Positions 4,224 to 9,359 of a stretch of DNA of 35,524 nucleotides are shown here, piece by piece. Position numbers and translations under genes: made by a program. Location: assembly GCA_002787235.1 (NCBI GenBank), contig PCWG01000026.1:29729-65252 (forward strand), in the 5' to 3' direction. Position 1 is the stretch's first letter; every line of letters begins with the position of its first letter. Origin of the DNA: Nitrospinae bacterium CG11_big_fil_rev_8_21_14_0_20_45_15. Its GTDB lineage: Bacteria > Nitrospinota > Nitrospinia > Nitrospinales > VA-1. The notes beneath the pieces are model-generated. The model worked only from the letters and a program-made list of their open reading frames with translations. It did no database searches and had not been told where the DNA came from.

Positions 4224-5105
4224 ATGAAAACATACGAAGATTTGGCTGGAGACGGTGGTTCCAATATTGTGGAACAGGTCCAGAACTTGGGCGTCAAACT
4301 CCGTTCACGGCTGGACAAAATCAAATACAAAATTTGCCTGATGAGCGGCAAGGGCGGTGTCGGCAAAAGTTCGGTTACGGCAAACATCGCGGCTTGTCTT
4401 GTTGACAAAGGTTACACCGTCGGTATTTTGGATGCCGATTTGAATGGCCCCAGCATTGCCCATCTTTTGGGCATTTCTCCTGATGACAAACTGGTGATTG
4501 ATGAGTCGGGCATTCAACCGGGTAATGGGGTGCATGGTATTCGTATCATGTCGATGGATATGTTGCTTTCGAGTCCCGATCAACCCGTGATGTGGACGGA
4601 AAATGCTGAAGCCAGCGCGGTTTGGGTCAGTACCATGGAATCGACCGCATTACGAGAGCTGGTTGCGGACACGTGTTGGGGTGAGTTGGATTTTCTATTG
4701 ATTGATATGCCTCCGGGGAGTGACCGCATCGATAATATTCGGGGTCTCATTCCCGAGCTTTCGGGTGTTGTTGAAATCACGATTCCTTCTCCGTTATCTC
4801 AGCATATCGTCAGCAAGTCGATCACCAAGAACAGCAAGATGGGTGTTCCTGTGATTGGTCTGGTTGAAAATATGGCGAGCTATGTTTGCCCGCATTGTGA
4901 TAAAGAGGGCGAATTGTTTGAAGGGGATGATGTTGAAACCTTGTCTACCCGCAAGGGAATTCCTTTTATCGGGAAAATACCTTTTGATACACGTGTTTCA
5001 CGAAAAACAGACTCTGGCGGATTGTTCTATATGGAACATCAGGAGTCGCCTACTGGCAAAGCGATTTGTACGGTCGCAGATGCCATTCTTAATTTTATAA
5101 AATAA
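4224..5105 (+). CDS. Mrp/NBP35-family P-loop ATPase
   Basis: A 293-residue soluble ATPase of the Mrp (ApbC/NBP35) branch of the SIMIBI P-loop class, whose members carry or insert Fe-S clusters. The deviant Walker A is GKGGVGKS at residues 42-49, followed by LDADLNGPS (switch I) and LLIDMPPGSD (Walker B region). A CPHC pair at C222/C225 matches the cluster-bridging cysteines of the family. There is no N-terminal DUF59 domain; a 38-residue lead occupies that place. The usual DLPPGTGD is DMPPGSDRID here. I chose the ATG at 4224 because GTGAGAG lies just upstream; an in-frame GTG at 4215 is possible. It is followed after 22 bases by the PCP-reductase-domain gene and probably acts with it. The substrate is unknown. 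Confidence 0.9.
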   Translation: MKTYEDLAGDGGSNIVEQVQNLGVKLRSRLDKIKYKICLMSGKGGVGKSSVTANIAACLVDKGYTVGILDADLNGPSIAHLLGISPDDKLVIDESGIQPGNGVHGIRIMSMDMLLSSPDQPVMWTENAEASAVWVSTMESTALRELVADTCWGELDFLLIDMPPGSDRIDNIRGLIPELSGVVEITIPSPLSQHIVSKSITKNSKMGVPVIGLVENMASYVCPHCDKEGELFEGDDVETLSTRKGIPFIGKIPFDTRVSRKTDSGGLFYMEHQESPTGKAICTVADAILNFIK

Positions 5106-5127
5106 TTTTTCAGATATAGGAGGAGTA

Positions 5128-5565
5128 ATGAAATTTCTTTGTATCCCTTGCGACACGCAAATGGAGACCCAGGTTGACGGTATCATGCCAGAAGAAAATA
5201 AAAATCTGGCCATGAAGTTCAAATGTAAAAAATGCGGCTATTCTATCGCCATGCTCACCAACAAATTTGAAACCGAGTTTGTGAGCAAACTGGGTGTTGA
5301 AATGGGTGGTGCCTCGGCGGAAGGCAAGGCCCCGTTGGGTGTGGTGTCTTCTGCTTTGGCAGAGGGTAAAGAAGAATTGAAAAAGGCCGCACCGCAGGCA
5401 GATGATTTGATCTGGACGGAAGAAGCTCAGGAACGTATTAAAAAGGTTCCTTTCTTTGTTCGCAATATGGCCAAGAAAACGGTGATCAATTTTGCACTCG
5501 AAAGAGGCATCACGACCATCGACGCCAAGCTGATGGACGAGGTTCGTGAAAAAGTAGGTATGTAG
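5128..5565 (+). CDS. Zinc-ribbon protein with PCP-reductase (PCP_red) domain
   Basis: A 145-residue protein with two parts. The N-terminus has two CxxC pairs (C5/C8 and C33/C36) that would form a zinc ribbon or hold an iron centre. The C-terminus (about 95-145) begins WTEEAQERIKKVPFFVR and continues through FALERGITTIDAKLMDE. This is the pattern of the small PCP_red domain at the C-terminus of the BchB/ChlB subunit of light-independent protochlorophyllide reductase. An Ala/Lys/Glu-rich linker joins the two. A strong ribosome site (AGGAGG) precedes the ATG. The partner upstream is an Mrp-type ATPase, a distant relative of the BchL/NifH reductase class, so the pair mirrors that enzyme's reductase-plus-catalytic logic. 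No chlorophyll genes are present; the real role is unknown. Confidence 0.85.
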   Translation: MKFLCIPCDTQMETQVDGIMPEENKNLAMKFKCKKCGYSIAMLTNKFETEFVSKLGVEMGGASAEGKAPLGVVSSALAEGKEELKKAAPQADDLIWTEEAQERIKKVPFFVRNMAKKTVINFALERGITTIDAKLMDEVREKVGM

Positions 5566-5606
5566 TCGAGCGGTTCATTTCGCGAAGAGGCCGTTTTTAC
5601 AGTTTT

Positions 5607-5647
5607 AAAAGACTCACGTTATTTCGATAATGTGGGTCTTTTTTTTT
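5607..5647 (+). terminator. Intrinsic terminator with UUCG tetraloop
   Basis: A 16-pair stem (5607-5622 with 5627-5642, two G-U pairs) closes on the very stable tetraloop TTCG at 5623-5626 and runs into a long T tract to about 5647. It follows the PCP-reductase-domain gene by about 40 bases and ends that two-gene transcript before the convergent nnr gene. Confidence 0.9.
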
Positions 5648-5684
5648 GTATTTTGCGGGAGGGCTACAGGAACAAAAAACGGGT

Positions 5685-7268: not shown

Positions 7269-7880
7269 TCAGACGTAGATGGAATAGGGGTAGTCCTCGG
7301 ACAGTATCAAATCCGTTTCCTCTCGGGTGGGTGCCAGACCATTGATCACTGCAAATTGTGTGGGGCAGTCGTAGCCTTTTTCAAGTTTTTCCTCTCCCGT
7401 CATGGCATTGTACTGGTCGGGAGTCAGGAGGAAGACGGTATTTTTGAAATACTCATGAATAAATAATTTAATGCGGAGTGGCTTGCCTTCCAGTTGAGGA
7501 AGTGTATTATTTCTCTCTTCGTTGTTATCATGGTTATAATTGAAGGCGAAGCGTATTAAAACGTCGTATATAAAACAATAGTGATAAGTGTTCATGTGGT
7601 GCCAACCACTTTTCGAGATCAAACCCTCCCATAGTTTATCGAGAAGGGTTTTCATGGTCTGGGCGGTACCCACAGGATACAAATGAGGATAAAATTTTCT
7701 GCCGTCTTCCAGCCAGAATTCGGGGAGTTGGCGTACCAGAAAATCGATGGTTTCTTTTTCCTCTTCGAGTGCCGCTTTTAGCAATTCAAAAGGATCTATT
7801 TCCAGACGTAAAGCAGAATGGGGCGCAGGATCTTCAATCTGCGAAGTTGAAGTGTAGATGTTTTTTTTGAATGCCAGCAT
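7269..7880 (-). CDS. Uncharacterised protein, paralogue A
   Basis: A 203-residue soluble protein that I do not recognise. No signal peptide or membrane segment is apparent. It is clearly homologous to the protein at 8667-9272. Shared blocks include the N-terminus MLxFKKNIY, a central W-x-HMNxYHxCxxxD segment, E-x-F-x-x-T-x-FL followed by P and NA, then EEK, and near the end VINxLxPTxxE and a PY close to the C-terminus. The conserved H, N, H, C and D suggest a metal or active site, but nothing more can be said. Its stop is 18 bases before nnr, implying an operon. The upstream region carries an inverted repeat AAGGACG/CGTCCTT at 7902-7939 just before the start codon. Confidence 0.8.
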   Translation of the reverse strand: MLAFKKNIYTSTSQIEDPAPHSALRLEIDPFELLKAALEEEKETIDFLVRQLPEFWLEDGRKFYPHLYPVGTAQTMKTLLDKLWEGLISKSGWHHMNTYHYCFIYDVLIRFAFNYNHDNNEERNNTLPQLEGKPLRIKLFIHEYFKNTVFLLTPDQYNAMTGEEKLEKGYDCPTQFAVINGLAPTREETDLILSEDYPYSIYV

Positions 7881-7939: not shown

Positions 7940-8096
7940 ATTTGTTAAGGGTTGTTCGTGATTAAAAGTAAAAAACAAGGTGAAAGTGATGAAAAGCTCT
8001 CACCTGATTATATAAAATGTCCTTAATTTGTTTCAGTTTAAGACTACCGCAAAATTCAATAGATTGCCAGTCTCATAAATATTTGTGGAGGATACT

Positions 8097-8672
8097 TTGA
8101 AATCCATTTATGAAATAACGTTAAAACGTATCGACGGTCAAGAGACGAGTTTGTCGGATTATAAAGGGAACACTCTTTTGATCGTGAACGGAGCATCTAA
8201 ATGTGGTTACACTCCGCAATATGCGGACTTGCAAAAACTACACACTACCTATAAGGACAGAGGATTAAAAATTTTATTGTTCCCCTGCAATGATTTTTTA
8301 AATCAGGAAGAAGGGGCGGAAAAGGAGATAGAAAATTTCTGTCAAACAAGATTTAAAGTTGAATTCGATTTGTTTGAAAAGGTCAAAATTTTGGGGAGCA
8401 GTCCACATCCCCTGTATCAATATTTGCAGGATTTCAATCAGCCTGCAATTTCACCCGGAGGCATTAAGTCTTTCTTGTTCAGAGGTTTCAAAAAACTGGC
8501 TTATTTTATGATGGGGAAACAACCGAAAACACCGGGTGGGGTTCAGTGGAATTTTCATAAATATCTGATAGGTCCAGACGGTGAGTTGAAGGCTCATTTC
8601 TTGAGCGAAATGGAACCTTTTGACCCTGCGTTGATTGCGAGAATTGAAGAGCAATTGAGCAAAAACTCATAA
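8097..8672 (+). CDS. Glutathione peroxidase-family thiol peroxidase
   Basis: A 191-residue thioredoxin-fold peroxidase that reduces hydrogen or organic peroxides. All four catalytic residues of the family are visible: peroxidatic C36 in NGASKCGYTP, Gln in FPCNDFLNQEEG, and Trp-Asn in QWNFHKYL. A further cysteine in IENFCQTRF sits where the resolving cysteine of thioredoxin-dependent peroxidases (yeast Gpx3) lies, so thioredoxin is the likelier reductant; trxB is in this window. It is longer than usual because of a segment before the Trp, with GGIKSFLFRGFKKLAYFMMG. I start it at TTG 8097 because GGAGG lies five bases upstream; the GTG at 8085 has no ribosome site. The 3' end overlaps the convergent unknown gene by six bases. 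Confidence 0.93.
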   Translation: MKSIYEITLKRIDGQETSLSDYKGNTLLIVNGASKCGYTPQYADLQKLHTTYKDRGLKILLFPCNDFLNQEEGAEKEIENFCQTRFKVEFDLFEKVKILGSSPHPLYQYLQDFNQPAISPGGIKSFLFRGFKKLAYFMMGKQPKTPGGVQWNFHKYLIGPDGELKAHFLSEMEPFDPALIARIEEQLSKNS

Positions 8673-9272
8673 GGTCAATTGCCCCGTTGTGTCGTAGGGG
8701 TCTTTTTCGCAAGGCAAAAGTCGAATTTCATTGGGAGTGGGAATGAGTTTGTTGATGACTCCAAACAAGCAGGGAATTTGAAACAAAGGGCTTTCTTTTT
8801 CTTCAGGTGACAGTGCGTTGAAGCCTTCAGGAGAAATAAGGAATGCGGTCGATATAAAGGTTTCTTCCAAAAATCGGTCAAAATCAATAATTTCGCCGTC
8901 CATTTCGGGAAACATTTCCATGCGTTGGTCAAAGTCTCCATAGCTGTATTCTTCTATCATTCCGTAAAGTGTATCGAAGAGATAACAAAGGTGATAGGCG
9001 TTCATATGCAACCAGGTGTTTGTTGTGACCAATCCTTCAAGCAAATTTTTGGAAATGGCGTTGAGAGTTTGCACTCCACCAAATCGAGAGGCGTGAGGAA
9101 ATAATTTCTGGAGATGATCCTGTTGTTCTTCCTCTTGCGCCAGACCTATGAAGACACGGCGGTCAGATACCAAAGCGTTTAAAAGAAAATCATAATGAGA
9201 CAAGGGTATGGGTGGATTTTCTGGATGGGACTCTTGTTGAGGGGCATATATATTTTTTTTAAAAATCAACAT
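8667..9272 (-). CDS. Uncharacterised protein, paralogue B
   Basis: A 201-residue protein homologous to the one at 7269-7880 and otherwise unrecognised. I begin it at the internal ATG (9270-9272) because the product then starts MLIFKKNIY, aligned with MLAFKKNIY of its paralogue; a reading from 9329 adds 19 residues with no counterpart and no ribosome site. Shared features are WLHMNAYHLCYLFD, ETFISTAFLISPEGFNA, EEK, GVINKLIPTPNE and DPY. The two copies have diverged to perhaps a third identity by eye, so the duplication is old. The peroxidase gene sits between them on the other strand. No signal peptide or membrane segment is seen. Confidence 0.8.
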   Translation of the reverse strand: MLIFKKNIYAPQQESHPENPPIPLSHYDFLLNALVSDRRVFIGLAQEEEQQDHLQKLFPHASRFGGVQTLNAISKNLLEGLVTTNTWLHMNAYHLCYLFDTLYGMIEEYSYGDFDQRMEMFPEMDGEIIDFDRFLEETFISTAFLISPEGFNALSPEEKESPLFQIPCLFGVINKLIPTPNEIRLLPCEKDPYDTTGQLTL

Positions 9273-9359
9273 GGCATTATCTATCAGGGGATGGGTGAAC
9301 ATAGGTTTAATGTATTTTGATACTAGCATAAGCGTGCCGGGAGGGAAGAATCATTCGCT

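Follow-up and report, generated by a model that had tools for sequence, protein, structure and literature searches.

An Mrp-type ATPase and a zinc-ribbon PCP_red protein form a conserved two-gene unit in Nitrospinota with a possible role at tetrapyrrole enzymes

What does an Mrp-type P-loop ATPase do beside a free-standing PCP_red protein in a bacterium without a chlorophyll pathway? The question is raised by a 35,524-nucleotide (nt) stretch, here called the window, of Nitrospinae bacterium CG11_big_fil_rev_8_21_14_0_20_45_15 (contig PCWG01000026.1, positions 29,729 to 65,252 of the forward strand), in which the ATPase gene is followed by a gene for a zinc-ribbon PCP_red protein, referred to below as the adaptor. 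PCP_red is named after chlorophyll synthesis and is structurally known from it; in the bacteria considered here, which are non-phototrophs, it occurs as a tag in several copies. The two-gene unit occurs in nitrite-oxidising marine bacteria and in several unrelated lineages. The module was not described in the open-access literature searched, and its novelty is provisional.

Operon layout and conservation within the order

The pair and its signals are arranged as follows.

4224..5105, plus strand: gene for an Mrp/NBP35-type P-loop ATPase (PF10609, E 6.8e-68; orthologue alignments; separate clade with support 99/97)
5106..5127, plus strand: intergenic stretch of 22 nt with an AGGAGG ribosome-binding site (read from the sequence; gap of 19-91 nt in 50 relatives)
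5128..5565, plus strand: gene for the zinc-ribbon and PCP_red protein, 145 amino acids (aa) (PF08369, E 8.3e-16; invariant cysteines; fold match to 2kru)
5607..5642, plus strand: intrinsic-terminator-like hairpin of 16 pairs, then a T run, common to both genes (folding of 5566-5660)

The stretch 5566-5660, which holds the hairpin and the T run, has a folding z of -4.7. The ATPase open reading frame (ORF) has two possible openings, GTG 4215 and ATG 4224; the latter, giving 293 aa, is the likely start since MKxYxDL is conserved among relatives. An initial annotation had described two linked genes with a shared terminator, an Mrp-family protein and a PCP_red domain joined to a CxxC zinc ribbon, and each of these descriptions holds. 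By its sequence the unit is an operon in this Nitrospinota genome (G000, 3.37 Mb, 97% complete). It is flanked on the opposite strand by aspS and nnr (names taken from translations, not from a family search), which look unrelated to it.

The sample comprised 291 genomes; the 214 of them from other phyla represent each family by about one or two. Among the 64 genomes of the order the adaptor is found in 54, the ATPase in 52 and both in 50; each of these 50 has the two genes side by side on the same strand, with the ATPase first. The linkage claimed for the window is thus seen throughout these relatives, and in nine more genomes outside the phylum. Six genomes of the order yielded a single gene of the pair. 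Five of these genes are truncated or lie close to or at the end of a contig, and in G055 it is the contig end that cuts the partner ATPase. The eight genomes with neither gene are mostly incomplete drafts. A scan of named genomes found relatives in Nitrospina and other Nitrospinaceae; because its patterns were tailored to Nitrospinota, it says nothing about absence in other groups.

The full-length pair was not seen in genomes of the phylum outside the order. In one class relative (L056:2300-2764, minus strand) a zinc-ribbon PCP_red gene without an ATPase lies between cytochrome c genes, its reading frame interrupted by a TGA. In a single family of this class (L047, L048, L051) a gene for a Usp-PCP_red fusion adjoins one for an AhbD-like radical SAM-PCP_red protein, and AhbD-like fusions recur across the class. 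PCP_red ORFs of 390-431 aa in class relatives were considered as Mrp fusions and rejected, since the domain proved to be joined to Usp or radical SAM.

Occurrence and gene neighbourhoods outside the phylum

PCP_red is present in 24 of the 214 genomes of other phyla. In nine outside genomes (G173, G170, G114, G123, G265, G138, G226, G158 and G136) a zinc-ribbon PCP_red gene directly follows the gene for a Mrp homologue on the same strand, and the two genes overlap by 4 nt in four of the nine. In a tenth, G160, the ATPase gene is next to a gene for a radical SAM-PCP_red protein, and the gene for the zinc-ribbon protein lies elsewhere. All seven outside genomes with a Mrp match below 1e-60 carry PCP_red; the best match in a PCP_red-free outside genome (5e-58) falls outside the PCP_red-linked clade. 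The adjacency of the ATPase and the adaptor is far beyond chance. No Mrp-PCP_red gene fusion was present in any fetched locus, a plasmid search returned bchB alone and a phage search gave no match.

The neighbourhoods are rich in cytochrome genes. They were read by direct ORF searches, since greedy gene calling gave spurious long ORFs where contigs were GC-rich. The pair has a Usp-PCP_red gene near it in seven of the nine genomes, a radical SAM-PCP_red gene in four and a gene for a CopD-like membrane protein in three; (multihaem) cytochrome c, COX3 and UbiA genes also occur. The Usp and radical SAM labels come from homology searches with the host proteins, the latter partly also from NCBIfam. 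Identification of the CopD-like neighbour as HemJ was rejected (UPF0093, 20.2 bits against 34.2). At L178, L179, L180 and L185, a separate Usp-PCP_red gene adjoins a conserved gene set that encodes multihaem cytochrome c and subunit I of a bd-like oxidase.

PCP_red proteins and haem enzymes of the host

The host genome encodes nine PCP_red domains in five proteins.

Window, 5128..5565, plus strand: the zinc-ribbon PCP_red adaptor, one of the five
G000:C30:12376-13239 (L002): HemQ/chlorite-dismutase-family protein with an N-terminal PCP_red, the host's only PF06778 protein
G000:C37:208086-209288 (L004): AhbD/NirJ2-like radical SAM/SPASM protein with a C-terminal PCP_red, the host's best AhbD/NirJ2-like match
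G000:C37:413.5-417 kb (L003): 691-aa protein with two Usp domains, three PCP_red domains and an internal zinc ribbon
G000:C38:5.6-6.4 kb (L005): 276-aa protein of three PCP_red domains

By family assignment, the PCP_red proteins of the host and of the other genomes centre on haem-type enzymes and respiratory loci. Coproheme is turned into haem by either of two enzymes, HemQ or AhbD (PMC7242693), so the recognisable host relatives of both alternatives carry PCP_red. Fusions in the host and in other phyla, where the AhbD-like radical SAM type recurs, fall within or near the AhbD (TIGR04545) and HemQ/ChdC (PF06778) families, differing from them in the extra PCP_red. A ferrochelatase is also present in the host. 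Since PCP_red is also found on haem-synthesis-type enzymes in these non-phototrophs, proteins of haem or of other tetrapyrroles are the probable clients of the pair; the tetrapyrrole link guessed at in the initial annotation is supported by two fusions in the same genome.

The Usp fusions keep a more generic role among the candidates. PCP_red may be a plain protein-protein docking domain, with the ATPase, the adaptor and Usp-PCP_red forming a stress or energy-state module that switches respiratory enzymes, the haem enzymes being only some of its clients. Usp-PCP_red, with one to three PCP_red copies, is found in most clusters as well as beside the bd-like oxidase and cytochrome genes, the host has the triple PCP_red protein, and among the relatives of the ATPase those of the MinD/FleN type work as switches. 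However, one would not expect a purely generic tag to gather on two different haem-finishing families, and the founding member of PCP_red acts on protochlorophyllide. On balance this role is improbable, though worth keeping in view.

The ATPase

The ATPase scores 229 bits against PF10609 (cut-off 27.1). Its Walker A motif, GKGGVGKS, is invariant in the orthologues, and its CxxC ligand motif, CPHC in the window protein, is invariant as CxxC in the 50 Nitrospinales orthologues. With the Mrp/ApbC/NBP35 iron-sulphur (Fe-S) carriers (for example Archaeoglobus 3kb1 and 2ph1) it shares the P-loop domain, the CxxC before the C-terminal part and, by sequence, the overall fold. It differs in several respects. 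The PF01883 domain, N-terminal in ApbC, was absent in the Pfam search; PPGSDR or a similar motif stands where other Mrps show PPGTG(D/N/A); an insert, about 10 aa in the window protein, follows PVMW; and most members begin with MKxYxDxxGDGGSN, of which the DGGS motif is conserved (window protein: MKTYEDLAGDGGSN). The protein also falls below the equivalog cut-offs for ApbC (NF008669, 148.7 against 348) and MrpORP (NF041136, 229.4 against 450).

In a tree of 46 Mrp proteins, with ApbC-type and NBP35-like members drawn both from the carriers of the linked ATPase and from other genomes, all the PCP_red-linked ATPases lie on one side of a single branch and the ApbC-type and NBP35-like proteins elsewhere, the exact placement of the long branches G158, G136, G138 and G226 being unsure. 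Two further family members are encoded by the host, an ApbC of 368 aa that has PF01883 and an NBP35-like protein of 299 aa, so the housekeeping role does not fall to the window ATPase. A second, ordinary Mrp is kept in the host and in nine of the ten outside genomes with a PCP_red-linked ATPase, so the linked copy is a specialised one.

It is possible, from its motifs, that the ATPase binds and transfers a [4Fe-4S] cluster. It could then be a dedicated Fe-S carrier, a client-specific ApbC/NBP35 paralogue with the adaptor as its targeting subunit, serving Fe-S proteins (radical SAM-PCP_red first) and handling no tetrapyrrole. The closest solved relatives are Fe-S carriers, the CxxC is kept in eight of the ten ATPases from outside the phylum as well as in the order, and radical SAM-PCP_red proteins are encoded in the same genomes, often in the same cluster. 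However, the CxxC stretch is deleted in G160 and G136, two outside lineages (L175:8769-9626 and L180:9519-10268), so Fe-S transfer cannot be a role common to all these ATPases, although it fits most members. Such a carrier also leaves PCP_red unexplained on the HemQ-family and Usp proteins, in which no Fe-S domain was found, and it is doubtful as the whole account.

The adaptor and comparison with protochlorophyllide reductase

The adaptor matches PF08369 over residues 96-140 (58.2 bits, cut-off 32.5). Its N-terminal part holds C5-x2-C8 and C33-x2-C36, four cysteines that are invariant within the order and resemble a structural zinc ribbon with putative zinc ligation. Seventeen positions are identical across 14 adaptors from the order and the ten outside genomes; they include these cysteines and, in the PCP_red part, W96, R103, P108 and R112. 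A CPF or CPI motif is found in the linker in eight of the ten genomes outside the phylum, and we take it to resemble haem-regulatory motifs.

In a structure prediction of the adaptor alone (predicted local distance difference test score, pLDDT, 58.7 overall) only the PCP_red part is reliable, with a pLDDT near 78. The best Foldseek matches of this part are the NMR structures 2kru (PCP_red of BchB/ChlB) and 2l09 (the solo PCP_red protein Asr4154) and 2ynm_D, the ChlB of dark-operative protochlorophyllide oxidoreductase (DPOR), at root-mean-square deviations of 1.2-1.9 A (1.4 A over 53 columns for 2kru). With E values of only 1.8e-3 to 0.13, the fold match is a backing for the sequence match, not evidence by itself. 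The adaptor differs from BchB/ChlB in having its PCP_red joined to the four-cysteine zinc ribbon, not to a nitrogenase-like subunit.

The layout resembles that of DPOR, in which BchL works with BchN-BchB, in pairing a P-loop ATPase with a PCP_red-bearing partner. A BchL-like ATP-driven reductase, an ancestral or stripped-down DPOR whose ATPase passes electrons to a PCP_red-held tetrapyrrole, would explain this parallel. The N-terminus of BchL, DGEGSVQVH, is conserved and flexible (PMC7948495); the conserved DGGS N-terminus of the ATPase, predicted at low confidence and probably flexible, is similar, a short likeness that may be chance and is a lead only. However, the initial report that the window lacks photosynthesis genes extends to nitrogenase-like subunits across the genome: PF00148 gave no match in G000, where control searches matched. 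The host is thus without the catalytic NB subunits. The ATPase is of Mrp type and its match to Fer4_NifH (PF00142, 20.4 bits) is under the cut-off of 25; the metal site of the adaptor is zinc-ribbon-like, and the two ATPase lineages without the CxxC count against electron transfer as well. With no catalytic subunit and an ATPase that is not NifH-type, a DPOR-like reductase is very unlikely. Of the earlier proposal of a repurposed reductase or maturation module, the conserved module outside chlorophyll synthesis stands, and the reductase is not supported.

Proposed role

The reading we prefer, tentatively and at somewhat less than an even chance, is that the pair is an ATP-driven assistant for PCP_red-bearing tetrapyrrole enzymes. 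The ATPase and the adaptor would act as one working unit, and PCP_red would serve as a common docking and tetrapyrrole-handling tag, contacting proteins or tetrapyrroles. The adaptor would bring the ATPase to enzymes of late haem synthesis, namely HemQ-PCP_red and the AhbD/NirJ2-like radical SAM-PCP_red protein. There the ATPase may help by ATP-driven loading or repair of a [4Fe-4S] cluster, or by driving the hand-over of coproheme or haem. A broader version is unlikely: in it PCP_red would handle coproheme/haem in general, and the pair would be a tetrapyrrole chaperone, driven by ATP, by which haem enzymes tagged with PCP_red are supplied or emptied in non-phototrophs.

Several observations weigh against a role at tetrapyrrole enzymes. 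The host pair is not beside haem genes, and class relatives outside the order carry PCP_red fusions but not the PCP_red-linked ATPase. The host radical SAM and HemQ proteins, like the fusions more widely, score under the NCBIfam equivalog cut-offs, and for this reason their haem-enzyme reactions are putative. PCP_red is also found on Usp proteins and as a triple repeat, where no tetrapyrrole link is evident. The CPF motif is absent from Nitrospinota adaptors, and the loss of the CxxC in two lineages bears on cluster loading. Finally, a prediction of both proteins as one read-through chain (stop recoded, TAA/TAG=G; 16 Nitrospinota pairs) gave no sign of an ATPase-adaptor interface, with a predicted template modelling score of 0.61 and pLDDT below 50 in the middle of the adaptor and in the linker.

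Other genes in the window

Two related ORFs on the minus strand, at 7269-7880 (203 aa) and 8667-9329 (220 aa), have no Pfam match and flank a glutathione peroxidase gene (8085-8672, plus strand).

Implications

PCP_red is fused to two unrelated haem-finishing families and is tied to an ATPase of its own across a wide evolutionary distance. If the tetrapyrrole link is true, PCP_red would have a general function, and nitrite oxidisers, like other respiring bacteria, would make or deliver haem with the help of an ATP-driven step that has gone unrecognised. The link would also bear on the origin of the C-terminal domain of BchB; should the general haem-handling version be true, the domain in BchB would be a single specialised case of one that is more widely tied to haem.
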